NCBI GenBank assembly: GCA_017992605.1
Contig: JAGOOG010000002.1
Coordinates: 62,001-126,000, forward strand
Source: Deltaproteobacteria bacterium
GTDB taxonomy: Bacteria; Desulfobacterota; Desulfomonilia; UBA1062
Length of the DNA stretch: 64,000 nucleotides
Reading direction: 5' to 3'
Shown here: positions 29,344-59,352 of the stretch, in pieces
Layout: each line of letters begins with the position of its first letter
Position numbering within the stretch: the stretch's first letter is position 1
Made by a program: the position numbers and the translations under genes
The notes under the pieces: generated by a model
Told to the model about the DNA's origin: nothing
Databases searched by the model: none
Seen by the model: only the letters and a program-made list of their open reading frames with translations

Positions 29344-30125
29344 GCGGTCTTCTTCCCAGGCAGCGCCAGGACCCTCAGGACCAGGAACAGGGTCAGGCAT
29401 ACAAGCACCAGCCAAACGGCCACGGGCTGGGAGTACTTAAGCCCGTAGGCCTCGTAACGCTCGTAGATGAGTACCGGCGCGATCATGGGGTGGTAGGCCA
29501 CCACCACGACAGCCCCGAACTCGCTGATGGCCCGCGCGCAGCACATGATGATCCCGACCAGAACGCTGCGCCATGCAAGGGGAAAGGTGATCCGGGCAAA
29601 GGTGCCCCACATGGAGGCGCCCAGGCTGCGGGACACGTTCTCGAGTCGTGGGGAGACGGCCTCAATCCCGCTCTTGAGGGCATTGATGTAGAAGGGCATG
29701 CCCACGAAGGTGAGCACCGCGATGATGCCCGTCGTAGTGCCCATGATCCTGATGCCGAGTTCGCTCATGATCTGGCCCAGCCAGTGGTTCCTCCCGGCCA
29801 CGCCCAGGATGGCGATGCCCACCACGGGGTGCGGGATCACGATGGGCAGGTCGATGATGCTCTCGATGAGGTGCTTGCCCCTGAACCTCGACCGGGCGAG
29901 CACGTAGGCGAGCGGCGTTCCCACCACGAAGGATATGCCCGCCGCGGCAAAAGCCGTGTATACGCTCAGCCAGATCGATTGGACAACGTTCTTGTCGTGA
30001 AGCGTTTCCTTGAGCATGGCCGAGGAGGGCGCCGTGAGCATCTCCACCAGCGGCAGGAGAATGAATGCCAGGACCACGATGCCGCAGGACACCGACACCC
30101 AGTAGAACGGCTCCCTCCTCGCCAT
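29340..30125 (-). CDS. wtpB: tungstate/molybdate ABC transporter permease
   Basis: The 261-residue membrane protein has about six predicted helices. It carries the ABC permease EAA-type loop SRSLGASMWGTFARITFPLA, and LPIVIPHPVVGIAILG is typical of ModB/WtpB permeases. It forms the channel for oxyanions delivered by WtpA. It lies 13 nt after wtpA and overlaps wtpC by 4 nt. WtpB and ModB cannot be fully separated by sequence; the WtpA-type binding protein next to it decides the name. Confidence 0.88.
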   Translation of the reverse strand: MARREPFYWVSVSCGIVVLAFILLPLVEMLTAPSSAMLKETLHDKNVVQSIWLSVYTAFAAAGISFVVGTPLAYVLARSRFRGKHLIESIIDLPIVIPHPVVGIAILGVAGRNHWLGQIMSELGIRIMGTTTGIIAVLTFVGMPFYINALKSGIEAVSPRLENVSRSLGASMWGTFARITFPLAWRSVLVGIIMCCARAISEFGAVVVVAYHPMIAPVLIYERYEAYGLKYSQPVAVWLVLVCLTLFLVLRVLALPGKKTA

Positions 30126-30138
30126 GATGTTCTTCCTG

Positions 30139-31125
30139 TCAGTCCTTCACTTCGACGAGGCCCTTCAGTTCTGCGGGCAGTGCGGATTTCATCTGTTCCG
30201 TGGGGACCCTGCAGGGGACGAAGGGCGGCTGGCCCTGGTCCTTGAGGACCTTCAGACCACCCTTGGGATCGAGCAGGTACTTGAGAAACGCCACGGCGGC
30301 CTCCCTGTTCGGGGCGTCTTTTATGAGGGTGACCCCGTAGGTGACCGACTCACCCTTCATGTCCATGAACTCGCCCGGCTTGCTCCCGGTCACCTTCACC
30401 ACGGCCTGGGAGTAAAAGTCATCCTTCTTGTAGTCGCCCAGGTTTATCTCATCTGGCAATGTCACATACTTCAGCCCGTGCTGCACGGCCACGGAGAGAT
30501 ACTCCCACGCGTAGTCCATGTTGCCGGTCTGGAGCAATGAAACGAGCTCCACGGACTTGGGCCTCACATTGGCCTGGGGGCGATTCGCGATCATCCTGTC
30601 GTAGATGCCGGGCTTCTTGTAGTACTTCTCAGCCAGCAGGAGCACCATGAGGGCTCGGTACCCGCATGGATCCAGGTTTGGGTCCGAGTGCCCCCAGACA
30701 ACCTCCTTCTTCTGGAGGATCTCGTACCAGTTGTCGGCATTCACATCCTTGGCGAACCTGCTCTTGTCAGTATAGCAGAGCACGAGCTGGTTGGTGGCGA
30801 ATCGGATGTTCCAGTCTGCATGCTTGGGGACAAGGAGTTTGTCTATGACCTTGAAATCCGCCGATGCCATGATGTCGCAGGGCTTGTTCAGATCCGTGAC
30901 CTTGCGCGCCGCCGCCTGACTGCCGCTTGCCTCGCGCTGCAAGTCAACGCCCGGATACATGGTCTCGAACTCCTTTTCCATGGTCTCGAAGGGCATGGTA
31001 AGGCTCCCCGCATGGAACATGACCACGGTCCCCTTGGGCTCTGCCTGGGCATACTGGGGTGCCCCAAAAACAGTGGATCCCAGGATGACAGCCAGTGCGA
31101 CCACCTTGTATAATAGGTTCTTCAT
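30139..31125 (-). CDS. wtpA: WtpA-type tungstate/molybdate-binding protein
   Basis: The 328-residue precursor has a signal peptide ending near AQYAQA, followed by [19 protein letters not shown]. The FHAGSL element is the hallmark of WtpA rather than Mod[25 protein letters not shown] and [18 protein letters not shown] also match WtpA oxyanion-binding blocks. It captures tungstate or molybdate in the periplasm. TGAGGAGGAAACAAT gives a very strong ribosome site. It lies 60 bp after the metallo-beta-lactamase gene. Confidence 0.88.
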
Positions 31126-33985: not shown

Positions 33986-34324
33986 TCAATGGTCGCAGAC
34001 ATTCTGTCCGCCCTGGAGCCTGCCCGCCAGGTACTCCTCCACGAGGGCCTCGGGGGCCAAGGCAGGGGCGCCTACGAGGACCTGAATGCCCTGCTGGTTG
34101 AACAGGGCGATGGCCCGCTGGCCCATGCCGCCTGCGATGACAAAGGTGGCGCCGCGCTCGGCGAGCCAGGGGGGCAGCAGGCCGGGCTGGTGGGCAGGGG
34201 CCGCCACGTCTTGGCGGCCCGTGATCTTCCTGGTGGCCGGGTCCACATCGACAAGCGCGAAGCGCTCGCAGTGACCGAAGTGCATGCACAGTGTTCCGTT
34301 TGCTACCGGTATGGCAATACGCAT
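33986..34324 (-). CDS. NifX/NifB C-terminal-like (orange-protein-type) metal-cofactor protein
   Basis: The 112-residue single-domain protein reads MRIAIPVANGTLCMHFGHCERFALV, then VIAGGMGQRAIALFNQQGI. This is the dinitrogenase iron-molybdenum cofactor fold shared by NifX, NifB C-termini and the Desulfovibrio orange protein. His15 and Cys19 in the HFGHCE motif are possible ligands. It is the gene after the NifU-Mrp fusion. It probably binds a Mo, Fe or mixed metal cluster; no nitrogenase genes are present. Confidence 0.88.
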   Translation of the reverse strand: MRIAIPVANGTLCMHFGHCERFALVDVDPATRKITGRQDVAAPAHQPGLLPPWLAERGATFVIAGGMGQRAIALFNQQGIQVLVGAPALAPEALVEEYLAGRLQGGQNVCDH

Positions 34325-34355
34325 ATATCATCTCTCCTTTACGTTCGTTCTTCTG

Positions 34356-35651
34356 TTATTCAGTCCGCTCCTGCTCGCTCGGTTCCGCGATGGGACGGAT
34401 GATCTCCTGCATGATGCCGGCTGTGGCCGATTTCGCATAGGCGTGGATGAACGGACAGCCTTCGTCCGAGGCCTCTGCGACACCCGGGTCCATGGGGATC
34501 GACCCGAGGAACGGCACGCCCATGTCCTCGGCGATGCGGCGGCCGGCGCCGGACCGGAAGACCGTGGTGACCTCGCCGCAGCGCGGACAGACAAAGCCGC
34601 TCATGTTCTCCACCACGCCCAGGACAGGCACTCCGAGGTGCCTGCAGAACGATATGGACTTGCGCACATCCACCTCGGCCAGGCGCTGAGGTGTGGTGAC
34701 GATGACCGCGCCGTCGAGGTTGCCGATGAGCTGGCAGATGGACAGGGGTTCATCGCCCGTCCCCGGGGGAGAGTCGATGATGAGGAAATCGAGGTCGCCC
34801 CAGGCCGCGTCCCGGAGAAACTGCTTGAGGGCCCCCATCTTCATGGGGCCGCGCCAGATCACGGCGTCGTCCTGGCTGGAGAGAAAGAATCCTATGGACA
34901 TGACCTTGAGCCCGCCGATCTCGATGGGCAAAATCTCTCCGTCGCGGCTTTCCGGTTTCCGTCCCTCAAGGCCCAGCATGGTAGGCACGCTGGGACCATG
35001 GATATCGGCGTCCAGGAGCCCCACGGTCCACCCGTCCATGGACAGGGCAACGGCCAGGTTCACCGCCACCGTGCTCTTGCCCACACCACCCTTGCCGGAG
35101 AGCACCACGATCTTGCGCTTTATCCTGCAGAGCCTGTTCTCGAGCCTCTGCCGTTCCTCGAAGTCCTTGTCGCTCTCGCCCTCTTTGCGCGTGCGGGCCG
35201 AACAGGATGAGTCGGTGCAGGTACCGCACGCCTTTGTCTCCTCGGGACGGTCCTTCCGGCGCCCCTGCACCGTGCTGTGTACATAGTTCTCGCAGGCTGC
35301 CCTCAGGGTGTTGGCCGCCAGCAGGGCACAGTGCTCGTGGTCCCGGGACAGACCGCCCAGCGCATCGAGGATATCCTGCTGTTCCATGACCGCGGCCTCT
35401 TCCAGGCTCACCCCCTGGGCAAGGCTCGTGGCCATGCTGCCGCAGGCCTGGGAATGACCGCACCCGTCCGTGGTGAATGATGCCTTTTCCACCTTGCCTC
35501 CCTTGACCAAGATCCAGACCTCCATGGTGTCGCCGCAGGGACCGGTGACTCTGGCATGTCCATTGAAGGCAGGCAGGGGCCCCATGTTCCTCGGGTTCTC
35601 GGCATGGTCCATGGCTGTGCCTGAAAGTGTCCTGTGTGCGTCCGTATCCAT
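34356..35651 (-). CDS. NifU/IscU-like scaffold fused to Mrp/NBP35-type P-loop ATPase
   Basis: The 431-residue fusion has an N-terminal IscU/NifU-like scaffold (residues 10-130) with the three ligand cysteines in VTGPCGDTMEV, TTDGCGHSQACG and RDHEHCALLA. A linker with CGTCTDSSCSAR follows. The C-terminal Mrp ATPase has deviant Walker A VVLSGKGGVGKSTVAVN, FLIIDSPPGTGDEP and a C-terminal VCPRCGE metal-binding pair. Mrp/Nbp35 proteins carry and deliver Fe-S clusters. Fusing scaffold and carrier in one chain suggests cluster build-up and transfer in one protein. GGAGG lies 12 nt before the start. Confidence 0.9.
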   Translation of the reverse strand: MDTDAHRTLSGTAMDHAENPRNMGPLPAFNGHARVTGPCGDTMEVWILVKGGKVEKASFTTDGCGHSQACGSMATSLAQGVSLEEAAVMEQQDILDALGGLSRDHEHCALLAANTLRAACENYVHSTVQGRRKDRPEETKACGTCTDSSCSARTRKEGESDKDFEERQRLENRLCRIKRKIVVLSGKGGVGKSTVAVNLAVALSMDGWTVGLLDADIHGPSVPTMLGLEGRKPESRDGEILPIEIGGLKVMSIGFFLSSQDDAVIWRGPMKMGALKQFLRDAAWGDLDFLIIDSPPGTGDEPLSICQLIGNLDGAVIVTTPQRLAEVDVRKSISFCRHLGVPVLGVVENMSGFVCPRCGEVTTVFRSGAGRRIAEDMGVPFLGSIPMDPGVAEASDEGCPFIHAYAKSATAGIMQEIIRPIAEPSEQERTE

Positions 35652-35652
35652 T

Positions 35653-36555
35653 TCAGCCTCCTGATGGCGTAAGATTCTCCCATACCTGTCTGATGTCGCC
35701 GGCCGAGTCCGTATCCGTCTCCACCACGGTGAGTTCCCTGATCTGTGCCCTGGTAACGCCGGGATCGTACCTGATGCGACCTGCGAGCCGGGCCCCGGCC
35801 CCCATGGCATGCTTCTCTATCCGCTCTGTCATGGCAGGGTTCAGGTCCCACTTGTTCACGCAGATCACTGCCGGGACCCCGAAATGCCTCGCCAGTGCGA
35901 GGACCCGTTCGAGGTCGTGTTCCCCGGATACCGTGGGCTCGGTGACCACGAGCACCTGTGTAGCACCGCCCAAAGACGCGATGACCGGGCAGCCGATGCC
36001 CGGGGGGCCGTCCACGATGATCAGGGAATGCCCCTGCTCCTCGGCGATGCGACGGGCCTCGCTGCGCACCATGGAGACGAGCTTGCCCGAGTTCTCGGCC
36101 GCGATGCCCAGCCTGGCGTGGACCATGGGCCCGCACCTGGTCTGCGAGACCATCCAGTGCCCGCAGGAACGGTCGGGAAAATCGATGGCCTGCTCCGGAC
36201 AGAAGTGCGCGCACACCCCGCAGCCCTCGCAGGATACGGGGTCAACACGGAAGGTGTCCCGGCCCGATCCTGTCTTGTCCCGCACGATGGCATCGTACCG
36301 GCACAGGTCCTCGCAGGTGCCGCACCCGGTGCAGTCCTGCTGCCTGATCACGGCCTCGCGGCCGCTGACGAACTCGTTCTTCGACATGACCTGCGGCTTC
36401 AGGAGCAGGTGCATGTCCGCCGCGTCCACGTCGCAGTCCGCTATGACCGCGTCCTGTGCCAGCACGGCCAGCGAGGCAGCCAGGCTGGTCTTGCCCGTAC
36501 CACCCTTGCCGCTGATGACGACAAGCTCCTGTATGCTTCGACCCTGACCGCTCAC
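35653..36555 (-). CDS. MinD-superfamily ATPase with inserted 2[4Fe-4S] ferredoxin domain (A)
   Basis: The 300-residue protein has the deviant Walker A VVISGKGGTGKTSLAAS and LIIVDGPPGIGCPVIASL. Between them lie two clusters, CTGCGTCEDLCRYDAI and CEGCGVCAHFCPEQAI. This layout matches the two adjacent MinD-ferredoxin ATPases of the Desulfovibrio orange-protein locus. The GTG start at 36555 is chosen because GAGGAGTGAGG precedes it and because the longer frame would overlap the FmdB-like gene. Only one base separates its stop from the NifU-Mrp ATG. Confidence 0.9.
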   Translation of the reverse strand: MSGQGRSIQELVVISGKGGTGKTSLAASLAVLAQDAVIADCDVDAADMHLLLKPQVMSKNEFVSGREAVIRQQDCTGCGTCEDLCRYDAIVRDKTGSGRDTFRVDPVSCEGCGVCAHFCPEQAIDFPDRSCGHWMVSQTRCGPMVHARLGIAAENSGKLVSMVRSEARRIAEEQGHSLIIVDGPPGIGCPVIASLGGATQVLVVTEPTVSGEHDLERVLALARHFGVPAVICVNKWDLNPAMTERIEKHAMGAGARLAGRIRYDPGVTRAQIRELTVVETDTDSAGDIRQVWENLTPSGG

Positions 36556-36562
36556 GACAGCC

Positions 36563-36823
36563 TCACTCCTCGCACCGGGGCGCTCCACAGCGTTCACCCC
36601 TCCCGCAGCAGGTCTTTCCCGTGGTCTCCAGAGAGCACGAGCCTGTACGGGATGCGGCCCTTCCCGGACCGCCGCCCTTGAAGTAAAACCCCGTGCCGCC
36701 GCTGACCACCCTGCGGACCGCACCTCCGCACTGGGGACAGTGTTCCAGCGGTGCATCGGTCATGGCCTGCTCGCGCTCGAAATGCAGGCCGCACGCCGTG
36801 CATTCATATTCATAGGTCGGCAT
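36563..36823 (-). CDS. FmdB-family zinc-ribbon protein
   Basis: The 86-residue protein begins MPTYEYECTACGLHFEREQ and has HCPQCGGAVRRVVSGGTGF, the FmdB putative regulatory zinc ribbon. The Cys-rich tail (KTCCGRGERCGAPRCEE) is longer than usual and could bind an additional metal. The start at 36823 follows AAGGAGGGCGACCC and lies 14 nt inside the 3' end of the upstream MinD gene. Its position between two MinD-ferredoxin genes suggests a small partner of these ATPases, which is inference. Confidence 0.85.
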   Translation of the reverse strand: MPTYEYECTACGLHFEREQAMTDAPLEHCPQCGGAVRRVVSGGTGFYFKGGGPGRAASRTGSCSLETTGKTCCGRGERCGAPRCEE

Positions 36824-37676
36824 GGGTCGCCCTCCTTGCCTGTTTATCATACCCCTTCACCGTCGCCAGGAGCCTGCCGAAGAGATCGCGGTACTCGGGC
36901 AGCGCATCCACCATGAGTTCTCCCCTGGAATAGGCCTCGGCAATGCGGCGATCATCGGGTATCTCCATGAAAATGGGCACCCCCTCGTCCCTGCAGAAGG
37001 CATGGACCCGATTATCACCGATACCCACCCGGTTGACGATCACCCCGAACGGGACGGCGAGCTCCCTGACCATGTCCACGGCCAGGCTCAGGTCGTGCAG
37101 CCCGAAGGGGGTGGGCTCGGTGACCAGGATGACCAGGTCGGTGTCCTTGATGGTGGCGATGACCGGACACGAGGTGCCCGGAGGCGCGTCCAGGATTGCC
37201 ATGCCCTGCCCGTCGAGGCGTTCCTTCACGGCCCGTATGACCGGCGGCGCCATGGCCACGCCCACGTCGATCCTGCCCTGGACGAGAGAGATGTGGCCGG
37301 CCTGGATGACCTCGACCTCGCCGATGCGGCGGTCCTTCTCGGTGATGGCCTTGGTGGGACAGACCAGGGTGCAGCCACCGCACCCGTGGCAGAGTTCCTC
37401 GAACACGAGGGCCTCGTCTTTCAGCGCCGCGATGGCGTTGAACTCACAGATGGCGCTGCAGGCGCCGCAGCCGTTGCAGAGCGCGACGTCCACCTCGGGC
37501 ACGGGCATGGTGACCACATCCCGGTCCTTCAGCTCGCCCCCCAGGAACAGGTGGCAGTTCGGTTCCTCCACGTCGCAGTCCAGGAGCTGCACCGGCGCGG
37601 GGGATACCCGCGCCAGGTTCACGGACACCGTGGTCTTTCCCGTCCCCCCTTTTCCCGACGCCACAGAGATGATCAC
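36810..37676 (-). CDS. MinD-superfamily ATPase with inserted 2[4Fe-4S] ferredoxin domain (B)
   Basis: The 288-residue protein starts with GTG and reads IISVASGKGGTGKTTVSVN. It has clusters CNGCGACSAICEFNAI and CHGCGGCTLVCPTKAI, then MAILDAPPGTSCPVIATI. It is a paralogue of the gene at 35653, and both belong to the pair known from orange-protein loci. The GTG overlaps the trmO stop by 4 nt (GTGA). ATP-driven transfer of electrons or metal to the NifX-like proteins is the likely role by analogy. Confidence 0.9.
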   Translation of the reverse strand: MIISVASGKGGTGKTTVSVNLARVSPAPVQLLDCDVEEPNCHLFLGGELKDRDVVTMPVPEVDVALCNGCGACSAICEFNAIAALKDEALVFEELCHGCGGCTLVCPTKAITEKDRRIGEVEVIQAGHISLVQGRIDVGVAMAPPVIRAVKERLDGQGMAILDAPPGTSCPVIATIKDTDLVILVTEPTPFGLHDLSLAVDMVRELAVPFGVIVNRVGIGDNRVHAFCRDEGVPIFMEIPDDRRIAEAYSRGELMVDALPEYRDLFGRLLATVKGYDKQARRATHADL

Positions 37677-38203
37677 GACGTTGCCTCCGGTTTCCTGCCG
37701 GGTCTGTATCCGCGCCGGCCCCGCCTGCGGGCCGTGGATTCATCCACCTCGTGCTGCCAGCCGTCCCGCGTCCCCTCGATGCGGTCGAACCTGCCCACAT
37801 AGGGCTTGATATCGAGCAGGGGTGTGCCGTCGAGGATGTCCAGCCCGTCGAGATGAAGGATCGTGCCTTCCCGGCTCACCAGTTCCACGATGCTCAGGCC
37901 GATGGGGTTGGGCCTGCACGGCGCCCGGGTGGAGAACACCCCGTGATCGACGTCCTGGAGGAAGGGCTGCACGGTCAGATGTACGGTTTCAGTGCAGTGA
38001 AAATGATAAATGAGGATGACATGAGAAAATCCCTCGAGGTCTTTCAGTCCTTCCACATACTCGGGCAGCACCTCGGCCCTGCCGGGGCACCCCCGTGCAT
38101 AGACGGGTTGGATCGGCGTCTGCTCGGGCACGGTGTGCTGACTGCGGATGACGCCGATGGGCTCATAGTTTATATGCACCGCGGAAGGTCTCTGCCCTGT
38201 CAT
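37673..38203 (-). CDS. TrmO/TsaA-family SAM-dependent tRNA methyltransferase-like protein
   Basis: The 176-residue protein carries the family pattern YEPIGVIRSQHTVPEQTPIQ, LEGFSHVILIYHFH, STRAPCRPNPIGLSIVEL and LDGLDILDGTPLLDIKPYV. E. coli TrmO N6-methylates the t6A37 of tRNA, but many anaerobes place such genes in metal-cofactor loci. It overlaps the NifX-like gene upstream by 4 nt and the MinD gene downstream by 4 nt, so it is embedded in the operon. A role on a non-tRNA substrate is possible. Confidence 0.88.
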   Translation of the reverse strand: MTGQRPSAVHINYEPIGVIRSQHTVPEQTPIQPVYARGCPGRAEVLPEYVEGLKDLEGFSHVILIYHFHCTETVHLTVQPFLQDVDHGVFSTRAPCRPNPIGLSIVELVSREGTILHLDGLDILDGTPLLDIKPYVGRFDRIEGTRDGWQHEVDESTARRRGRRGYRPGRKPEATS

Positions 38204-38562
38204 ACCCAGTGCCCCTCGACGTCCGCTGCATTCGCCGGGGTCAGGCTGCCTGCCCTGAACCGGTCGATGGCCTCGGAGATGGTGGGGGCATCCGTTGTGT
38301 AGATCGTGATCCCGGCGGCAGACAGAACCTTGAATGCGTTGGGGCCGCAATGCCCTGTCACCAGGTGCCTGGCTCCGGTTCTGGCCACGTTCTGGGCCGC
38401 CTGGATGCCTGCACCCTGGGAGGCATTCAGGTTCTGGGTGTTGTCGGTGACCTCGATGGCCCCGGTATCCAGGTCATACACGAGGATCTTCGGTGCACGG
38501 CCGAACCGGATGTCTATCGGGGCATCCAGGCCGTCGCCGGACGTGGTGAATGCAATCTTCAT
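38200..38562 (-). CDS. NifX/NifB C-terminal-like (orange-protein-type) metal-cofactor protein
   Basis: The 120-residue protein reads MKIAFTTSGDGLDAPIDIRFGRAP, then LVTGHCGPNAFKVLSAAGI and TISEAIDRFRAGSLTPA. The GHCGPNAF motif with its Cys is characteristic of the orange-protein branch. It resembles the N-terminal domain of the fusion at 57318 (GNCGPNAFQTLSAAGI) closely, so the two modules in the window share an ancestor. AGGAGAAGACC precedes the start. It probably binds a metal cluster. Confidence 0.9.
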   Translation of the reverse strand: MKIAFTTSGDGLDAPIDIRFGRAPKILVYDLDTGAIEVTDNTQNLNASQGAGIQAAQNVARTGARHLVTGHCGPNAFKVLSAAGITIYTTDAPTISEAIDRFRAGSLTPANAADVEGHWV

Positions 38563-38602
38563 GGTCTTCTCCTTTCAGCTTTCCATTCAGGAAAACTGAT
38601 CT

Positions 38603-39046
38603 TCAGTCATAGGCCTGCATGACCTCATGGTCTTCCGCCATCAGGTCTCCGGCCAGGTCTCTCGTGCCCGAGCGATCCCAGAAATCGAGCCGCTCGTGAA
38701 CGGTCAGGTATTTCAGGGGGATGGGGTGGGTGCCGATAACCACGTCCAGACCGTACTGCGTCTCTATGTACTTCTTGAACTCACCGATGTACGGGCAGGG
38801 AGGGTACCCCACGACGAACCCCGTTGCCAGGTGTATGACCTCGGCGCCGTTCTTCTTCATCTCTGCCGGGACCTGTTCCACATTGCCCCCCGGACACCCT
38901 CCGCAGGTCGAGTAGCCCACGATCTCGACCTCTTCGCCGGCAGAGTACCTCGCAAAGGCACCTTTCCGCTCTCTGAGCGCCCTGAAGCACTTGCCGCCCC
39001 CGCAGTCGCGGTAGCGGTCACAGATGATGATGCCGATCTTCTTCAT
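38603..39046 (-). CDS. CGGC-domain protein
   Basis: The 147-residue protein has IIICDRYRDCGGGKCFRAL near the N-terminus and the eponymous VGYSTCGGCPGGNV, with FVVGYPPCPYIGEF later. CGGC domains are rich in Cys and His and are thought to bind metal, but no member has a firm function that I know of. It lies between a small unknown gene and a NifX-like gene in the sigma-54 run, which favours a role in metal-cofactor handling. Confidence 0.85.
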   Translation of the reverse strand: MKKIGIIICDRYRDCGGGKCFRALRERKGAFARYSAGEEVEIVGYSTCGGCPGGNVEQVPAEMKKNGAEVIHLATGFVVGYPPCPYIGEFKKYIETQYGLDVVIGTHPIPLKYLTVHERLDFWDRSGTRDLAGDLMAEDHEVMQAYD

Positions 39047-39067
39047 CGCATACCCCCCTAGCCCAGC

Positions 39068-39394
39068 CTACCGTCTGTTCCCGCCGCCGCCGGCGTGGTC
39101 CCTCTCGTCATCAGGCCCCTCGATGGCCGATGGCTCCACAACTATGGTCCTGACGCGCTGGGGCGCCTTGCGCTTCTCGAGCAGGCGCCGAGCAAAGGCC
39201 TTGATCCTGCTGTCCGGCTGCCGCAGATCGTGCACGGCTGCCCCTGCCAGCCACGCCAGCACAGGACCGAGAAGGGGCGCCCTCCTGAAGAGGCGTCCCA
39301 GTATCAACGAAGAACCGGGAAGCCTTTTCCCCAGGGACCTCCGGATGATCCTCTTGCCCCACCTGTACTGCCACGGTCCTCCCGGGTTCGTACT
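39068..39394 (-). CDS. small basic hypothetical protein
   Basis: I do not recognise this 108-residue product. It starts MSTNPGGPWQYRWGKRIIRR, is strongly basic, has one hydrophobic stretch of about 16 residues (LGPVLAWLAGAAVHDL) and ends in an acidic, glycine-rich tail. AGAAGG lies 10 nt before the ATG. It fills the space between the NifX-zinc-ribbon gene and the CGGC gene in the same direction with short spacers, so it is probably real. Nothing in the sequence gives a function. Confidence 0.55.
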   Translation of the reverse strand, partial: STNPGGPWQYRWGKRIIRRSLGKRLPGSSLILGRLFRRAPLLGPVLAWLAGAAVHDLRQPDSRIKAFARRLLEKRKAPQRVRTIVVEPSAIEGPDDERDHAGGGGNRR

Positions 39395-39429
39395 CATGGT
39401 ATGCAACCTTCTCTTTCCATCCCCGTACC

Positions 39430-39939
39430 CTATCCCCTGACCAGCGGACTTCCGCACGTGGGGCATTGCTTCCGCGAGCAGGGGGTGCCCCGTACGTGGG
39501 GTTCCCTATGGGAACACTGCGGGCATACACAGAAGCCGCACGTACCGGAGGCATCCCCGATCTCGCACCAACGCCGACCGGACCCGTCCCTTTGCCTCAC
39601 CTGCGAGCAGCAGCCGGGCATGGCAAAGCTGTCATCATGGATCCTGCCCTCGATCCAGGCCTGGATCACCTCGTGCAGATCCCCGGCCACGAACGGGATG
39701 AGCGTTATCCCGCTGGAGGAGACAAGTCCCTGCATGGGCCGCGATATGGCCCCGCAGACCAGGGTGTGCACCCCGAGCCTGGCCAGGCATTCGACCTTCG
39801 CTCCCAGGTCATCGGCCGGTATGGTTTCCTCGCTCTCGCTGAGAATCCGGCCTGCATCGACCTCCACAACCAGGAGCTGCCGCGCCACGTCAAAGACCGG
39901 TGCGATCCTGTTGTTCCAGAAGGGGAATGCTGTTTTCAT
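39430..39939 (-). CDS. NifX-like protein with C-terminal Cys-rich zinc ribbon
   Basis: The NifX-like part reads MKTAFPFWNNRIAPVFDVARQL and VHTLVCGAISRPMQGLVSSSG. It ends in AMPGCCSQV and is followed by a ribbon with CGFCVCPQCSHRE and CSRKQCPTCGSPL. The first half is clearly related to the protein at 56391 (HWGDRISPVFDVTDNL). The ATG at 39939 is preferred over that at 39957 because the sigma-54 promoter would start transcription near 39961. It is the first gene behind that promoter and the likely namesake target of the activator at 40122. Confidence 0.85.
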   Translation of the reverse strand: MKTAFPFWNNRIAPVFDVARQLLVVEVDAGRILSESEETIPADDLGAKVECLARLGVHTLVCGAISRPMQGLVSSSGITLIPFVAGDLHEVIQAWIEGRIHDDSFAMPGCCSQVRQRDGSGRRWCEIGDASGTCGFCVCPQCSHREPHVRGTPCSRKQCPTCGSPLVRG

Positions 39940-39971
39940 GCGGTCGTTGCTGTCCATCCGCCCAGGTATCC

Positions 39972-39987
39972 AGCACAGATCGTGCCA
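39972..39987 (-). promoter_or_regulatory. sigma-54 (-24/-12) promoter of the long leftward operon
   Basis: The minus strand reads TGGCACGATCTGTGCT, matching TGGCACG-N4-TTGCW with a single mismatch. The predicted start is near 39961, just ahead of the NifX-zinc-ribbon gene. Confidence 0.75.
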
Positions 39988-40073
39988 TGGTCACGACATC
40001 GTGTTCGCGACAGCCAACATGCCGGAAATACTGTTTTCTTGATATTCTCTGGGATGTTGACCCGGCCCCGGTG

Positions 40074-40122
40074 GTCGCTTTTTTGCGACTATGGCCTCTA
40101 ACGATGGTCGCAAAGTTGCGTC
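40074..40122. promoter_or_regulatory. paired activator-binding repeats GTCGC-N6-GCGAC
   Basis: GTCGC-N6-GCGAC at 40074-40089 is a perfect inverted repeat. GTCGC-N6-GCGTC at 40107-40122 is a second copy with one change. They are 33 bp apart start to start and 87-150 bp upstream of the -24 box, the usual place for enhancers of sigma-54 activators. Confidence 0.7.
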
Positions 40123-41504
40123 TATTCCCTCCGGGCTCCGGCAGGTCCTGTTCTTTCCGGCACTGCAATCCCGTACCGCCTCATCTTCCTGAACAGGGTG
40201 CTCTTGTGGATGCCGAGCTCGCGGGCTGCGGCCAGGCGGCTGTTCCCGTTTCGCTCCAGGGCCTTCCGGATGGCCTGGGCCTCGACAAGGTCCCTGGCCG
40301 ATCTCATCCCACTCTGGGCCTTTCCCTTTGCATAGCGCTCGGTCAGCTCTTCGGGCAGATGCCCGATACCGATGGAGCCCCTGGCACAGAGGATGAAGGC
40401 ACGCTCCACGACATTCTCGAGCTCCCGGATGTTGCCCGGCCAGTCGTGGGCCATGAGCAGGGAGAGGGCCTCGGAGGTGATCCCCTGGACGGATTTCTTC
40501 TGCAGGGCGTTGAAGTGTGCGACGAACTGCTCCACCAGGATGGGGAGGTCCTCCTTCCTCTTCCTCAGCGGCGGCAGTTCGAGGCGGACCACGTTCACCC
40601 GGTAGTAGAGGTCTTCGCGGAACTGGCCCTGTTTCACCTGTTTGGCCAGGTCCCTGTTGGTGGCGACGATGATCCTGGCATCCGCGGTCTCGGTCCGGGT
40701 GGAGCCCAGCGGCTCATATTTCCGCTCCTGAAGGACACGCAGGAGCTTCACCTGGAGCGCCGGGCTCACATCTCCGATCTCGTCGAGGAACAGGGTCCCG
40801 CCCTTTGCCAGGGCGAACCTGCCGGGCTTGTCCCGCGTGGCCCCCGTGAAGGCCCCTGCCTTGTAGCCGAAGAGCTCGGACTCGAGGAGAGTGTCCGGAA
40901 GCGCGCTGCAGTTGACCGCGAGAAAAGGCCCCTGGCGGCGAGGACTCAGGGCATGGATGGTCCTGGCAACGACCTCCTTGCCCGTGCCGGTCTCGCCGAG
41001 GATGAGCACGGTGCTGGGGCTGGCCGCCACGGCAGGGATGACCTCGAACACCTTCTGCATGGTGGGGCTCCGGCTCACCAGCTCCCCCACATGGGAACGC
41101 CCTTTCAGTTCCTGGCGGAGTTCCTCGAGCTCGGTGAGGTCGCGGAAGGTTTCCGCCCCGCCGGTGACTCGCCCACTCGCATCCCTCAGCACGGCCGTGG
41201 AGACGCTGATGGGGATGCGCTGCCCCTGCGTATCGATGATGTAGCAGGACCTGCCTATGATCGGCCTGCCGGTCATGAGGGTCCGCTTCAGCGCACAGTC
41301 CACCTCGCACATGCTGGAGCGGAAGACCTCGGAACAGAGCCGGCCCACCGCTTGGTTGCGGGGTATGCCGGTGATCTCCTCGGCGGCCCGGTTGAACGAG
41401 GTGACGATCCAGTTCTCGTCCACGGTGAACACCCCGTCCGAGATGCTCTCCAGTATGGCATCCGTGGGGGTCGTGGTTTTCCAGCTCCTCTGTTTCTGCA
41501 CCAT
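40122..41504 (-). CDS. sigma-54-dependent activator (PAS-AAA-Fis) of the orange-protein-type operon
   Basis: The 460-residue regulator has a PAS domain (residues 15-125), an AAA domain with Walker A GETGTGKE, the sigma-54 contact loop GAFTGA and [18 protein letters not shown], and a Fis-type helix-turn-helix [20 protein letters not shown]. The PAS domain holds Cys57, Cys66 and Cys70 in a spacing shared with the activator at 54845. It lies directly upstream of a -24/-12 promoter and paired inverted repeats. In Desulfovibrio the orange-protein operons are controlled by such an activator with sigma-54. The start at 41504 gives the family N-terminus. Confidence 0.92.
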
Positions 41505-41596
41505 TATGCTTCTTCCGGGGGATTCATGGTCCCGCTCTCCAGGGGCCTGCCCCCCGCTTCTTACCACAACCGCTCGATTCCTGGAAGATCCGGGGG

Positions 41597-47611: not shown

Positions 47612-47674
47612 CATCTTCTGTCGTCGGGAATGAATCCAGTATCCGGCCGACTATCCAGGGGAGGAGGTTGGTGC

Positions 47675-48766
47675 ATGAAGATGAAGAACGTATTCGCAAC
47701 ACTGGGGGGCATCATGGCCGTAGGCGCCCTTATCGGCGTCCTCGCGCCACTGCTGCAGAAGCTGGGCAACCCAGGCAACATGGGCATCTGCGTGGCATGC
47801 TTCGAACGTGACATCGCCGGCGCCCTGGGGCTCCACCGGGCCGAGGTGGTGCAGTACATGCGTCCCGAGATCATCGGGTTCGTCCTGGGCTCCCTGGTGG
47901 CCGCACTGCTGTTTAAGGAGTTCCGTCCCCGGGCCGGCTCCGCACCCATCGTGAGGTTCGTGCTCGGGGTGTTCGCCATGATCGGTGCCCTGGTATTCCT
48001 GGGCTGTCCCTGGAGGGCACTGCTCAGGCTCTCCGGCGGCGACCTGAATGCAATCCTGGGGATCCTCGGTCTCGCCTTCGGGATCTGGATCGGCACACTT
48101 TTCCTCAAATCGGGCTATAACCTGGGCCGCACCGAAAAGACCCACAGTGCGGCAGGGCTGGTACTGGCGGCGATCATGACAGGATTTCTCGCCCTGGCCC
48201 TCGTCTTTCCGCCCCTTGCCGGAGAACCGAAAAACGACATCCTGTTCTACAGCCTGAAAGGGCCGGGCTCCATGAACGCCCCGCTCTTCGTGTCCCTCGG
48301 CATCGGGCTGGCCATCGGGTTTCTTGCCCAGAGAAGCAGGTTCTGCACCATGGGGGCCATCCGCGACCTGGTCCTGTTCGGCCAGACGCACCTGTTCATG
48401 GGCATCCTGAGCCTGGCGGCGGCGGCCTTCGTCACCAACCTCGTGCTGGGGCAGTTCCACGCGGGGTTCACCGGACAGCCCGTCGCCCACACCATGCACG
48501 TCTGGAACTTCCTGGGCATGGCGCTGGCGGGCCTGGCCTTTGCCCTGGCAGGGGGCTGTCCGGGCAGGCAGCTCTTCCTGGCCGGCGAGGGTGACGGCGA
48601 CGCCGCGGTGTTCGTCATCGGCATGATCGTGGGCGCGGGCATTGCCCATAACTTCGGTCTTGCAAGTTCACCTCAGGGCGTCGGCCCGCACGGCATCGCA
48701 GGCGTGGTGGTGGGATTCGCCGCCTGCCTGGCCATCGGCTTCACCATGCGCAAGAGCGCTGCATAA
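47675..48766 (+). CDS. yedE: YedE/FdhT-type selenium-metabolism membrane protein
   Basis: The 363-residue membrane protein belongs to the YeeE/YedE transporter family. It has the selenium-branch features NPGNMGICVACFERDIAG, VFLGCPWRALLRLSGGD and ALAGGCPGRQLFLAGEGDGD, with conserved Cys residues in each. Family members are transporters or channels for a sulfur or selenium species. GAGGAGG precedes the ATG at 47675, so that start is preferred to 47630. It is followed by TusA-like and DUF3343 genes, the usual company of this selenium-linked branch. Confidence 0.86.
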   Translation: MKMKNVFATLGGIMAVGALIGVLAPLLQKLGNPGNMGICVACFERDIAGALGLHRAEVVQYMRPEIIGFVLGSLVAALLFKEFRPRAGSAPIVRFVLGVFAMIGALVFLGCPWRALLRLSGGDLNAILGILGLAFGIWIGTLFLKSGYNLGRTEKTHSAAGLVLAAIMTGFLALALVFPPLAGEPKNDILFYSLKGPGSMNAPLFVSLGIGLAIGFLAQRSRFCTMGAIRDLVLFGQTHLFMGILSLAAAAFVTNLVLGQFHAGFTGQPVAHTMHVWNFLGMALAGLAFALAGGCPGRQLFLAGEGDGDAAVFVIGMIVGAGIAHNFGLASSPQGVGPHGIAGVVVGFAACLAIGFTMRKSAA

Positions 48767-54844: not shown

Positions 54845-56221
54845 CTATCTCCGCCTGCCCCGGCCGTCTGTTTCGGGCACCTCGATAGCGAGGGCCTCGA
54901 TCTTCCTATAAAGCGTACTGGTGTTGATGCCCAGGATCTGAGCCGCCCGTTTCCTGTTTCCGGCGGAAAGTCTCAGCGTCTCGGTAATGAGGCGCCGCTC
55001 CATGACCTGCAGGCTCATGGGCCCGAGGCTTTCCTTTCCCGTTGCCAAGGCAGGGCGCAGTTCGGACGGCAGGTGATGCAGCTCGATGATACTGCCGCGG
55101 CAGAGCACGAAGGCCTGCTCTATGATGTTCTCCAGTTCGCGGACATTGCCCGGAAAGCTGTGCTCCATGAGGCGGGCCATGGCCTCCGGGGAAACGCCTG
55201 CTATGTCCCTGTCCTGCAGGTGATTGAACCTGGACACGAGGTGGTCGACGAGCAGCGGGATGTCCTCCCTGCGCTCCTTCAGGCCGGGCAGGGCCAGGTG
55301 GACCACGCGGATGCGGTAGTACAGGTCTTCCCGAAATGACCCGGAACGTACGAGCTCGGCAAGGTTCCTGTTCGTTGCAGCCACCACACGCACATCCACC
55401 TTCACCGGCTCGACCGAGCCCAGCGGTTCCACGATGCGGTCCTGGAGGACCCGCAGAAGCTTTGCCTGCATGGCCGGGGATATATCACCGATCTCGTCCA
55501 GGAACAGCGTCCCTCCGTTTGCCAGAGTGAACCGTCCCGCCTTGTCGCGCCTGGCATCGGTGAAGGCCCCGGCCTTGTGCCCGAACAGCTCGCTCTCCAG
55601 CAGCGTATCAGGCAGGGCTGCGCAGTTCACCGGGACGAAGCGTTTCTTCCTGCGCAAGGAAAGGTTGTGGATGGCACGTGCAAAGAGTTCCTTGCCTGTG
55701 CCGCTGGGACCTTCGATGAGGACCGTGCTGCTGCTCTGGGCGATCTGTGGCAGGATCTCAAAGAGATTCATCATGGCCGGGCTCCTGCCGACGATGTCCT
55801 CGAAGGTCCGGCGTCCCTCCAGCTCCTTCTGGAGATGCTTGACCTGACTCAGATCCTGGAAGGTCTCGACACCGCCGATATGGTTCCCTTTCTCATCCCT
55901 GAGGATGGCTGCCGAGATGCGGATCGGCACCTGCTGCCCCTGGATATTGATGATGTGGGCCGTTGTGTTCACGGTGGGCGTGCCTGTTTCCAGGGTACGT
56001 CGCAGTGCGCAGGCCTTCTCGCAGATGTCTGCATGGAACACGTCGGAACAGGCCTTGCCCAGGGCCTCTTCACTGGGCACACCGGTGATGCGCTCAGCCG
56101 CAAGGTTGAACGAGGTTATCCGCCAGTCCGAATCTACCGTGAACACCCCCTCGTTGAGGGAATCCAGGATGATGTCACGCTCGTTCTGATTCGCAGCCGT
56201 TTCTTCCTGCCGCATATACAA
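54845..56221 (-). CDS. sigma-54-dependent activator (PAS-AAA-Fis), second copy
   Basis: The 458-residue regulator has PAS, AAA and Fis-type domains. The AAA part carries GPSGTGKE and [18 protein letters not shown]. The sigma-54 contact loop reads GAFTDA instead of GAFTGA. The PAS domain has Cys58, Cys67 and Cys71 in KACSDVF-x4-CEKACALRRTL, the same layout as in the activator at 40122. The DNA-binding helix is NRKRAAQILGINTSTLYRK. It is divergent from a NifX-like gene with a strong -24/-12 promoter and paired repeats in between, so it probably controls that module. Confidence 0.92.
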   Translation of the reverse strand: MYMRQEETAANQNERDIILDSLNEGVFTVDSDWRITSFNLAAERITGVPSEEALGKACSDVFHADICEKACALRRTLETGTPTVNTTAHIINIQGQQVPIRISAAILRDEKGNHIGGVETFQDLSQVKHLQKELEGRRTFEDIVGRSPAMMNLFEILPQIAQSSSTVLIEGPSGTGKELFARAIHNLSLRRKKRFVPVNCAALPDTLLESELFGHKAGAFTDARRDKAGRFTLANGGTLFLDEIGDISPAMQAKLLRVLQDRIVEPLGSVEPVKVDVRVVAATNRNLAELVRSGSFREDLYYRIRVVHLALPGLKERREDIPLLVDHLVSRFNHLQDRDIAGVSPEAMARLMEHSFPGNVRELENIIEQAFVLCRGSIIELHHLPSELRPALATGKESLGPMSLQVMERRLITETLRLSAGNRKRAAQILGINTSTLYRKIEALAIEVPETDGRGRRR

Positions 56222-56363: not shown

Positions 56364-56379
56364 TGGCATTGCCTTTGCA
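56364..56379 (+). promoter_or_regulatory. sigma-54 (-24/-12) promoter of the second NifX module
   Basis: TGGCATTGCCTTTGCA matches TGGCA-N6-TTGCA exactly at the conserved GG and GC. The expected start near 56390 is almost at the ATG (56391), so the mRNA may be nearly leaderless. Confidence 0.85.
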
Positions 56380-56390
56380 GAATCACTTCC

Positions 56391-56783
56391 ATGAGGATCG
56401 CGGTAGCCCATTGGGGAGATCGCATCTCCCCGGTCTTCGATGTGACCGACAACCTGTATGTCGTCGACATCGATGGCAACCGTGAGATCCGGCGTGAAAG
56501 CAGGGCGCTGGTCAGCCGTAACCCTTTTCAGAGAGCCATGGAGGTGTCCGGGCTCGGGGTGGACCTGCTCGTGTGCGGGGCCCTGTCCCATGTACAGGAG
56601 GCCGCGCTCATGAGGGCGGGTATCCAGGTGGCAGGATTCATCTGCGGCGACGTGGCCGCCGTTGTCAATGCCTTCCTCAACGGAAAACTGACCGACGGTC
56701 GTTTCCTCATGCCCGGCTGCTGTGGCAACCGGCGGAGGATCCGCATCCAGGGGCGCAGGGGCGGCCACCGATGGGGCCGCTGA
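56391..56783 (+). CDS. NifX-like (orange-protein-type) metal-cofactor protein
   Basis: The 130-residue protein reads MRIAVAHWGDRISPVFDVTD, then GVDLLVCGALSHVQEAALM and FLMPGCCGNRRRIR. It is a close relative of the NifX-zinc-ribbon protein at 39430, sharing the PVFDV, LVCGA and MPGCC elements, but it ends in a short arginine-rich tail instead of a ribbon. It is the first gene behind the sigma-54 promoter. It probably binds a metal cluster. Confidence 0.87.
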   Translation: MRIAVAHWGDRISPVFDVTDNLYVVDIDGNREIRRESRALVSRNPFQRAMEVSGLGVDLLVCGALSHVQEAALMRAGIQVAGFICGDVAAVVNAFLNGKLTDGRFLMPGCCGNRRRIRIQGRRGGHRWGR

Positions 56784-56829: not shown

Positions 56830-57216
56830 ATGCCATTCGGAGATGGAACTGGACCTGGTGGATATGGACCCATGACAGGACGCGCAGCAGGATTCTGCGC
56901 CGGATACGCAGTGCCCGGATACGCGAACCCCGTCTTTTGCCGCGGCTTCTGGGGCGGGGGAAGGGGCAGAGGAGGTGGAGGCGGCTGTGGCTGGCGGCAC
57001 TGGTATTATGCAACAGGCCTGACCGGCTGGCAGCGCTCTGCCGCATTATCTCCCGCATGGGGGAGGCCCTGGTCCTATGCAGCGCCGGCAGCGCCTCCCG
57101 TAGCGAGACAACAGGAGCTTGACGCGCTGAAGGGACAGGCGGGGTACCTTGAACAGACCTTGTCGGAAATCCGCAGGCGTCTCGAGGAGCTCCAGGCACA
57201 GGGGACCGAAGACTGA
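56830..57216 (+). CDS. DUF5320-type glycine-rich small protein
   Basis: The 128-residue protein begins MPFGDGTGPGGYGPMTGRAA, the DUF5320 signature found beside NifX-like genes in many anaerobes. A glycine-rich, Cys-containing section (FCRGFWGGG, GGCGWRHWYY) follows, and the C-terminus is a coiled coil (LDALKGQAGYLEQTLSEI). The start at 56830 is behind AAAAGGAGGACACG. The coiled coil suggests oligomerisation. The function is not known; the constant context points to metal-cluster proteins. Confidence 0.8.
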   Translation: MPFGDGTGPGGYGPMTGRAAGFCAGYAVPGYANPVFCRGFWGGGRGRGGGGGCGWRHWYYATGLTGWQRSAALSPAWGRPWSYAAPAAPPVARQQELDALKGQAGYLEQTLSEIRRRLEELQAQGTED

Positions 57217-57317: not shown

Positions 57318-58079
57318 ATGAAAATAGCGGTTACATCGACAGGTCCTTCCCTGGATGCGCCGGTAGAGCCCCGGTTCGGCAGGTGCCCGTGGTTTCTCGT
57401 GGGAGAGACTGATACCATGCAGTTTGAAGCGGTGGAGAACTCCAGTGCCGCCCTCGGGGGAGGGGCTGGCATCCAGACAGGCCAGACCATGGCAAAACTG
57501 GGCGTCACCCATGTCCTCACCGGCAATTGCGGACCCAACGCCTTTCAGACGCTCTCCGCCGCAGGGATCACCGTCGTGACAGGATGTTCAGGCATGGTTC
57601 GGGATGCAATTGAAAGATTCAGATCTGGCAGCATGACCGCCTCGGCCGGGGCCAACGTGATGGATCACTACGGCATGGGCGGGACCGGAGGAAACGATAT
57701 GAGTAGAGGTGGTGGACGCGGAATGGGCGGTGGCAGAGGCATGGGTGGTGGGCGTGGCATGGGTGGCGGTCGCGGTATGGGAATGGGCGGCGGTCGCGGT
57801 AAGGGTGGTGGACGCGGCATGGGCATGGGAGGCGGCAGAGGCATGGACATGAGTGTCGCGGGTAACGCCATCCCGCCGACCATAGAACAGGCGGGAAGAA
57901 AAACAACGATCGCAAAGGTGGACCCCGACCTGTGCACCGGGTGCGGGGTGTGCGTGGACATGTGTCCCATGGGCGCGATCAGTCTCCGGGACAATACCGC
58001 ACAGGTGGACGTTCAGAAGTGCACCGGGTGCGGGATCTGCGAAGATGAATGCCCGGTGGGGGCCATCAGCCTTCAGTGA
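57318..58079 (+). CDS. NifX-like domain fused through a GRGMGG repeat to a 2[4Fe-4S] ferredoxin
   Basis: The 253-residue fusion has three parts. Residues 1-115 form a NifX/orange-protein-like domain (MKIAVTSTGPSLDAPVEPRF, TGNCGPNAFQTLSAAGI). Residues 131-177 are a low-complexity tract of G-G-G-R-G-M units. Residues 200-253 are a ferredoxin with CTGCGVCVDMCPMGAI and CTGCGICEDECPVGAI. The domain matches the single-domain protein at 38200. The fusion could link electron delivery to a metal-cluster carrier. GAGAGGTGTTTT precedes the ATG at 57318. Confidence 0.88.
   Translation: MKIAVTSTGPSLDAPVEPRFGRCPWFLVGETDTMQFEAVENSSAALGGGAGIQTGQTMAKLGVTHVLTGNCGPNAFQTLSAAGITVVTGCSGMVRDAIERFRSGSMTASAGANVMDHYGMGGTGGNDMSRGGGRGMGGGRGMGGGRGMGGGRGMGMGGGRGKGGGRGMGMGGGRGMDMSVAGNAIPPTIEQAGRKTTIAKVDPDLCTGCGVCVDMCPMGAISLRDNTAQVDVQKCTGCGICEDECPVGAISLQ
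57708..57848 (+). repeat. in-frame GRGMGG-coding repeat tract
   Basis: Degenerate 18-24 nt units of the form GGTGGxCGCGGxATG recur about seven times, encoding alternating GGGRGM, GMGGGRGM and GGGRGK. Third positions vary, so the tract has been kept at the protein level. Confidence 0.8.
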
Positions 58080-58206: not shown

Positions 58207-59352
58207 ATGTCACCTGATCCCCTGACCCCGTATGGCAACCGGCCCATGGTAACCCCCATTGTCAATGCAGTGAACTACGAGTACTCCTCCTTCGAGGTGC
58301 TCCGCCAGATCACGGACGGCGAGATCGACGGCTACACCTACCACCGGGACGACAACCCGACGGTCCGGGCCGTGGAGCACAGGGTGGCGGCCCTGGAGGG
58401 GGCCGAAGACTGCATCATCTGCACCTCGGGCATGGCGGCCTGTACCATGGTGTACCTGACCTATCTCCATGCAGGCGACCACGTGATCATCTTCCACGAC
58501 ACGTACGGGGCCAACTACAAGGTCTCCCTCATCCTCGAGCGCCTGGGCGTGAACATCACTTGGCTGGACGCGGACCAGGCGGATGACATCGAGGCTCTCC
58601 TGCGGCCGGACACCCGCATGATCTTCCTGGAGACCCCGAGCAACCCCCTGTGCAAGGTCATCGACATACGCGCTGTCAGAGCGGCTGCTGACAAGGTGGG
58701 CGCAATGGTCGTGGCGGACAACACCTTTGCCACCCCCTACCACCAGAACCCGCTGAAACTGGGCGCCCACCTGGTGATCCACAGCGCGACCAAGGGCCTT
58801 GGGGGTCACAATGACCTGATGGCAGGGGTCATTGCGGGCACGAAGAAGGACTATGACGAGCTCTGGTTCACGAGGCAGGCCATAGGCACCACCCTGGATC
58901 CCCATTCGGCCTTCCTGCTCGCCCGGGGGCTGAAGACCTTCGATCTCCGCGCACAGACCATGTCCCAGAGCGCCCAGGCTGTTGCCGAGCACCTCGAAGG
59001 CCACCCGAAAATCTCACGTCTTATTTACCCCGGCCTCAAGAGCCACCCCGCTCACGCAGCGGCAGCGCGGCAGATGCAGAGGGGCTTCGGCGGCATGATG
59101 GCCTTTGACGTGGGAGACACCCAGGAAGACGCCAAGCGGTTCATCCTGAATTTGAAGCTCATCTATCACGCGGTCAGCCTGGGCGCCACGGAGACACTGA
59201 TCTGCATCCCTTACCTGACCACCATGCTCTATCTGCCGCCCGAGCGGAGGACGTCTTTCGGGGTCAGGGAGAACACGATCCGCCTGTCCCTGGGGATCGA
59301 GCCCACACAGAGCATCCTGGAAGACCTCGACCAGGCCCTGGCGGACCTGTAG
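58207..59352 (+). CDS. PLP-dependent Cys/Met metabolism enzyme (gamma-lyase/synthase family)
   Basis: The 381-residue enzyme has the family PLP lysine in HSATKGLGGHNDLMAG, DNTFATPYHQNP for cofactor binding, SGMAACTMVYLTYL and SLGATETLICIPYLT. It cleaves or forms C-S bonds in cysteine, homocysteine or methionine metabolism; gamma-lyase and gamma-synthase activities cannot be told apart here. It heads a rightward group with a metallo-beta-lactamase, Nudix and radical SAM gene. The spacer to the next gene is 9 nt. Confidence 0.88.
   Translation: MSPDPLTPYGNRPMVTPIVNAVNYEYSSFEVLRQITDGEIDGYTYHRDDNPTVRAVEHRVAALEGAEDCIICTSGMAACTMVYLTYLHAGDHVIIFHDTYGANYKVSLILERLGVNITWLDADQADDIEALLRPDTRMIFLETPSNPLCKVIDIRAVRAAADKVGAMVVADNTFATPYHQNPLKLGAHLVIHSATKGLGGHNDLMAGVIAGTKKDYDELWFTRQAIGTTLDPHSAFLLARGLKTFDLRAQTMSQSAQAVAEHLEGHPKISRLIYPGLKSHPAHAAAARQMQRGFGGMMAFDVGDTQEDAKRFILNLKLIYHAVSLGATETLICIPYLTTMLYLPPERRTSFGVRENTIRLSLGIEPTQSILEDLDQALADL

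Follow-up and report, generated by a model that had tools for sequence, protein, structure and literature searches.

Storage of iron–sulfur outside ferritin is, going by the literature found and the available portions of it, characterized for one archaeal protein. This protein, IssA of Pyrococcus furiosus (PF2025), stores thioferrate on a PF02579 domain, forms particles and reconstitutes the [4Fe-4S] cluster of ferredoxin in vitro. Its tail is predicted to be unstructured, cationic and Gly-rich, is rich in aromatic residues (14 of 70) and has been proposed by its authors as the part that holds the anionic thioferrate chain; an uncharacterized 'IssX' clade with Gly-rich tails is also named, and MTH1175 is counted as an IssA-type protein (all in the available portion of PMC5524996). 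A survey of methanogens classes IssA by its PF02579-type domain (PMC8351635, available portion). Among the orange proteins (ORPs), that of D. gigas carries a Mo–Cu sulfide cluster, the orp operons of D. vulgaris are under sigma-54 control, and in MrpORP the PF02579-type domain was shown to bind Fe–S (PMC6345978, available portion).

The window, by which we mean the whole 64,000-nucleotide stretch analyzed, encodes a protein that resembles IssA and IssX in its IPR003731/PF02579 domain, in the disordered, cationic and Gly-rich tail after that domain and in its link to ferredoxin cluster supply. IssA terminates in its tail, which is Pro/aromatic-rich, whereas the window tract has Met in place of aromatics, alternates Gly and is fused to a ferredoxin. 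P. furiosus IssA also has a single Cys in its aromatic-rich tail; the window tract (58 aa) contains neither an aromatic residue nor a Cys, so the window protein is not classed as IssA. To the ORPs (D. gigas 2wfb and Orp8 of D. vulgaris) it is alike in fold, in sequence (48% identity to 2wfb) and in the sigma-54-type regulator nearby, and relatives of the fusion gene have MinD-type ATPases nearby. MrpORP (NF041136) likewise joins a PF02579-type domain to an Fe–S protein, but its partner is an Mrp/NBP35 ATPase and not a ferredoxin, and the available portion of PMC6345978 does not mention a Gly-rich tract. No description of an ORP–tract–ferredoxin fusion or of the G-X alternation described below was found in the available portions of the literature searched. 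The architecture is real and recurring, in its domains, tract pattern and conservation, predicted disorder, gene context and repeated fusion; it is apparently undescribed and best placed as a variant of the tailed PF02579 kind. A bacterial polypeptide that unites a domain of the storage type, a patterned tail and a putative ferredoxin acceptor, encoded in a recurring gene cluster, would make storage and delivery testable in a single small protein. DUF5320, the family of the adjacent gene, would gain its first testable role as well; no functional account of it was found in the literature searched, which turned up work on poplar heat-shock factors and archaeal G-quadruplexes instead.

The fusion gene and its domains

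Translation of positions 57318-58079 (+) gave a single open frame of 253 aa plus stop, with the following features.

57318..58079, +, ORP/NifX–(Gly-X)n–ferredoxin fusion gene, 253 aa, Shine-Dalgarno (SD) GAGAGG at the start
57318..57665, +, orange-protein-like PF02579 domain, aa 1-116, with conserved LTGNCGPNAF (C71) and pLDDT >90 over most of it
57672..57851, +, Gly/Arg/Met tract with looser flanks, aa 119-178; core repeats aa 130-176, 47 aa
57687..57701, +, GGAGG-N7-ATG (M128), at which a free tract–ferredoxin may be started internally, homologous to the leader and start of a separate ferredoxin gene in the family genome G019
57912..58073, +, 2[4Fe-4S] ferredoxin domain, aa 199-252, Fer4 profile from aa 200

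The initial annotation had read the gene as a NifX-type metal carrier joined by a Gly/Arg/Met repeat of about 47 residues to a 2[4Fe-4S] ferredoxin. The core repeats have that length and link the two domains within one frame, and the ferredoxin part is borne out by its Fer4 profile and by two CxxCxxCxxxCP motifs in the translation. For the first domain the metal-carrier type stood: a Pfam profile search matched PF02579 (Nitro_FeMo-Co) at aa 13-102 with E 3e-22 and 79.1 bits against a curated cut-off of 26.3. The name NifX proved loose, since among solved structures the best match is 2wfb, the D. gigas orange protein (E 3e-23, TM 0.91 normalized by target, 48% identity over 115 columns), which upholds the suggested kinship with a Mo–Cu orange protein.

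In the AlphaFold model, two confident folds are held in no fixed mutual arrangement (pTM 0.51), and aa 117-194 are mostly at pLDDT <50 and thus predicted to be disordered. Cys residues are confined to the ORP domain and the ferredoxin.

Relatives and history of the fusion

A scan of one genome per species across 84,980 species returned 437 relatives of the window protein, and the best 80 of 437 were kept; these are the closest matches to the window protein itself, which inflates the fused share in all counts below. Of these 80 loci, 59 gave a row in the table of distinct proteins, nine had ORP frames without the required CGP motif, and the other 12 comprised five loci that duplicated family genomes and others dropped by a start-codon filter. 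With a tract criterion of ≥15 aa, the resulting comparison set (the best 80 of 437 relatives, the family and the window) holds 82 distinct PF02579 proteins, 63 tract-bearing and 19 tract-less, and a ferredoxin is fused in 24/63 and 1/19, respectively. The 39/63 tract proteins scored as unfused are an upper count, as at least four rows (L050, L088, L091 and L101) hit contig ends and draft-genome frameshifts are possible. Fused members span Planctomycetota, Fermentibacteria, Krumholzibacteriota, Paceibacterota, Syntrophaceae, Chitinispirillaceae and others, named as in the draft metagenome records. Fused relatives in several phyla rule out a fusion unique to this genome, and with 24 other distinct fused frames tabulated, a sequencing artefact of the repeat is unsupported.

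Within the family, all 24 genomes (own included) matched the query at E 1e-10, many through ferredoxin parts alone. The fused form was parsed in five of the 24 (own, G001, G002, G009 and G010), and the tailed form was scored unfused in eight (G004, G006, G007, G012, G017, G019, G020 and G021), of which the G007 locus runs past a contig end and the G004 tract measures only 13 aa. Neither form was parsed in the remaining 11/24, four of which (G003, G005, G016 and G023) were covered as 2-3 kb loci only.

Mapping the fused label onto a tree of the domain gave 11 gains or losses, at least six of them forced by well-supported branches, as expected of working partners; the nearest partner of the window protein on this tree is the unfused protein of G012 (96/97). 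In a reference tree, which has few columns and some long branches, D. gigas ORP, MTH1175, the tail-less ORP of the window (38200-38562) and 10 of the 19 tract-less rows formed one 13-row set (97/82) that includes none of the 63 tract-bearing proteins; the nine remaining rows without a tract also fell outside it. In this tree the fusion protein thus differs from D. gigas ORP, which has no tail, and lies outside the clade that this ORP forms with the tail-less ORP of the window. MTH1175, IssA-type according to the available portion of PMC5524996, groups with the tail-less ORPs on a long branch, and the IssA sequence itself is outside the tree.

Gene neighbourhood, joint and internal start

The fusion gene is the third of four genes on its strand that follow a divergent activator, in the order activator (−), then NifX-type, DUF5320, fusion and Mgl-type enzyme.

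54845..56221, −, divergent PAS/sigma-54 activator
56364..56378, +, sigma-54-type −24/−12 element TGGCATTGCCTTTGC, 1 mismatch, 12 bases before the listed start of the NifX-type gene
56391..56783, +, another PF02579-like (NifX-type) protein, whose gene opens the presumed operon, 25.3 bits against a Pfam cut-off of 26.3
56833..57216, +, DUF5320 protein, rich in Gly/Arg and by eye coiled-coil-like at its C-terminal end, adjoining the fusion gene upstream
58207..59352, +, Cys/Met metabolism PLP enzyme ('Mgl' here), adjoining the fusion gene downstream
39973-39987, −, the other −24/−12 element with 1 mismatch, 15 bases upstream of the start listed for a NifX-type gene

These two elements were the only sites with one mismatch in the −24/−12 search of the window, which returned none with zero. 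Each directly precedes the first NifX-type gene of a cluster, where the Shine-Dalgarno sequence is weak or lacking. At ≤2 mismatches the window held 49 sites, not above the chance expectation of 64.6.

Neighbours within 6 kb were assigned by motifs and by similarity to the proteins of this window for 44 of the 62 tract genes outside it, namely those with >1.5 kb on both sides. Around these 44 loci (best 80 of 437 relatives and family), MinD/Mrp-type ATPases were found at 41, DUF5320 at 35, NifX-type proteins at 34 and a sigma-54 activator at 14. A separate small ferredoxin lay near 2/16 fused genes versus 9/28 unfused genes of the same loci.

The window contains two ORP-type clusters less than 25 kb apart. 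The classical one (33986-41567, −) comprises NifX-type genes, two MinD–ferredoxin type ATPases, the tail-less ORP, a CGGC protein, an IscU/NifU–Mrp type fusion (below NCBIfam cut-offs), a gene that by eye resembles a second sigma-54 activator and one that we take to be TsaA-like. The MinD genes of the window sit in this cluster, at 34-42 kb, away from the fusion gene. A WtpA and WtpB tungstate transporter (29343-31125, −) lies 3 kb from it, with WtpA over both cut-offs and WtpB below its own. Elsewhere, a YedE-family putative selenium transporter is encoded at 47630-48763 (+; 482 bits against a cut-off of 200).

One family genome, G019, carries a stand-alone (GRGM)n–ferredoxin gene (L044:6471-6983, −) between DUF89 and Mgl genes, and the same two genes in the window flank the entire stretch from activator to fusion. 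The leader and ATG of the G019 ferredoxin gene are identical to window codons 119-128 at 26/30 bases; 23 of its 27 leader bases match at this joint, compared to 19 at the next best place on both window strands. By eye, no ATG, GTG or TTG occurs in the G019 frame upstream of the ferredoxin ATG, so the counterpart of M128 is the likely start there. The sequence upstream of that ATG reads FGTGG and resembles the ORP-domain end H-F/Y-G-M/T-G. This points to loss of the ORP portion of a fused gene in G019 and away from a gain in the window. Judged from sequence, the chance that an internal start at M128 works in the window and yields a free ferredoxin falls a little short of even. Shine-Dalgarno strength was rejected as proof of this start, five other ATGs of the tract being slightly better in predicted energy than M128 (−9.8 to −10.5 versus −9.5). 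A core SD of some kind precedes an internal start codon in 16/25 fused genes of the comparison set (best 80 of 437, family and window); as Gly codons create SD-like sequences by chance, the one argument that counts for M128 is the homology of the joint.

Other arrangements differ again. In G012 (same genus, stretch 77% identical), a segment that begins inside the tract and extends to about 60.0 kb is absent, and with it the ferredoxin, Mgl and the greater part of the gene that follows. In G022 and G011, activator, NifX and DUF5320 genes occur together with a separate ferredoxin and an Mgl-type gene, and the interval between DUF5320 and ferredoxin lacks an ORP gene; the Mgl-type gene adjoins the ferredoxin gene in G019, G022 and G011. 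The differences among these four genomes mark the locus as modular. At L106:4573-5055 and L132:5680-6198, a DUF5320-like N-terminus and Gly/Arg tract are fused to a ferredoxin (for L106, Pfam reports the ferredoxin alone), and this type is a second route to a tract–ferredoxin.

The Gly-X tract and its possible roles

The repeat array was located at 57708-57823 with period 18 by TRF. It comprises seven six-codon units, six of GGGRGM and one of GGGRGK, with extra GM pairs interspersed. Across the whole genome (2.71 Mb, 63 contigs), a GRGMG DNA pattern gave 13 matches versus eight for the reversed control pattern; the sole cluster comprised five matches inside the fusion gene, and the remaining eight were scattered. 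The window tract (58 aa) is cationic and Gly-rich, with 35 G, 8 R, 1 K and 1 D. Tracts were chosen as the best-scoring G/R/M stretch after the PF02579 domain, so that composition and residue presence in the 63 tracts of the comparison set (best 80 of 437, family and window) are partly by construction: pooled, their 2288 residues are 58.4% G, 20.8% M and 12.8% R, with 4 acidic, 8 aromatic and 5 Cys residues, and net charge is above zero in 62/63.

In most tracts, glycine occupies alternate positions with Met, Arg or Gly in between. For successive non-Gly residues in the 63 tracts of the comparison set, the spacing was an even number 777 times and an odd number 111 times (n=888), against an even fraction of 0.365 after shuffling, and alternation was significant at 0.05 in 52/63. 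Among 16 representatives below 65% domain identity, 225 spacings were even versus 41 odd; when adjacent pairs were excluded, 225/240 were even versus 0.72 under an adjacency-forbidding null. Tract picking does not fix residue order, so alternation, unlike composition, is not by construction. As read from the tract list, 4-residue and 6-residue units obey it alike, and slippage of one ancestral unit therefore explains the pattern poorly; shared descent contributes. In an extended chain, G-X alternation would put all side chains on one face.

We tentatively favour, at somewhat less than even probability, reading the fusion protein as an IssA-like metal-sulfide carrier with an attached ferredoxin client, which may be a storage-and-delivery device for iron–sulfur clusters. 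The ORP/NifX domain would nucleate or hold a metal-sulfide cluster, and the disordered cationic (Gly-X)n tract would hold or condense metal sulfide and gather copies of the protein, with Arg pairing with the anionic sulfide and Met serving as a soft donor or sticky residue. The ferredoxin in cis could be the first [4Fe-4S] acceptor or an electron source for loading and unloading. Metal-sulfide binding, self-assembly and transfer to the ferredoxin would then be the activities of one chain, and the mineral could be either iron sulfide, as with IssA, or a Mo/Cu sulfide, as with ORP. Storage and reconstitution by IssA together with Fe–S binding by the MrpORP domain favour metal-sulfide holding by domain and tract, and the Fe–S/ORP-type gene context, including the IscU/NifU–Mrp type fusion in the classical ORP cluster of the window, counts for the same reading. 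Against it count the aromatic residues, 14/70 in the IssA tail (PMC5524996, available portion) versus 8/2288 in the 63 tracts of the comparison set; the L088 tract without Arg; L049, fused with an 11-residue tract, and L052, unfused with 13; the 11/63 tracts without significant alternation (for example L127, L050, L108 and L139); and the position of the window MinD genes, which are not beside the fusion.

A bolder form of the IssA-like reading is unlikely. In it, the (Gly-X)n tract (X = Arg, Met or Gly) would be a dedicated template for anionic metal sulfide, its Met and aromatic forms common to the ORP, DUF5320 and ferredoxin proteins of one multi-phylum cluster. Jointly these would form a metal-sulfide storage body of anaerobes that hands clusters to a tethered ferredoxin, with the internal start here possibly adding free tract–ferredoxin to make a mixed scaffold.

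Also unlikely, yet the most probable of the alternatives, is a tract that acts as an assembly tag. Coiled coils and Gly-Arg-Met/aromatic tracts would then make ORP, DUF5320 and ferredoxin stick together or to MinD-type ATPases, without direct metal contact. Within one cluster, G/R-rich tracts are carried by three unrelated partners, namely ORP, DUF5320 and the stand-alone ferredoxins (L044, L053), and the DUF5320-like–ferredoxin fusions L106 and L132 point the same way. The DUF5320 profile (PF17253), besides the adjacent gene, matches 19/29 scanned relatives at E 0.01. A coiled-coil-like end is present by eye in many relatives, and in L098 the profile match, over the C-terminal half, covers that end. 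The window fusion protein, however, lacks such an end, has no DUF5320 match (Pfam profile, E 0.01) and no modelled helix between tract and ferredoxin (AlphaFold). DUF5320 proteins differ further in their N-terminus (MP.GDGTGP...) and in tracts that, in the listed rows, lean towards aromatics more than towards Met and that alternate less strictly (28/66 at p<0.05).

A mere flexible spacer that Arg keeps soluble and repeat slippage has lengthened would fit the predicted disorder, the lack of fixed domain contact in the model and tract lengths of 11 to 63 residues across the fused proteins of the comparison set, with L049 nearly repeat-free yet fused. We consider it quite improbable, because composition and parity are kept across phyla, also where no ferredoxin follows (the 39/63 scored unfused, at least four of them at contig ends), and because the seven window units differ mostly at silent positions (pS 0.692, pN 0.058, ratio 0.084, a descriptive figure as the units are related). 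The silent third-base variation previously taken as a sign of selection on the peptide is thereby confirmed.

The initial annotation had also raised Cu(I) binding by the Met-rich tract; such binding might feed a Mo–Cu sulfide cluster in the ORP domain. Met is present in 63/63 tracts of the comparison set (best 80 of 437, family and window), at a per-tract share (mean 0.214, sd 0.072) about as constant as that of Arg (mean 0.134, sd 0.048), and MGM occurs in 48/63 and MxxxM in 49/63. These spacings resemble known Cu(I) Met motifs, but G-X alternation alone already gives even Met spacing. The Mo–Cu cluster of D. gigas ORP (PMC6345978, available portion) and the tungstate-type transporter 3 kb from the classical ORP cluster also speak for copper. 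Arg, which is no Cu(I) ligand and occurs in 62/63 tracts of the comparison set, would be left without a role, and, as a weak objection, the neighbours recognized by similarity to window proteins and motifs are Fe–S/ORP-type genes; we hold the proposal to be decidedly improbable. A metal-free role in RNA binding or liquid condensates, also raised earlier, is very improbable. The literature with GRGMGRG strings, which in its available portions concerns eukaryotic GR-rich proteins such as SmD3, speaks for it; against it, the gene context is of Fe–S/ORP type, and the usual tract period is 2 (G-X), not RGG.

In one relative (L092:3140-3814), a tract-bearing ORP continues into a Cys-rich CPKCG...CPKCG end in the place of the ferredoxin, and the NifX-type protein of the window at 39430-39957 has a similar CPQC...CPTCG end.
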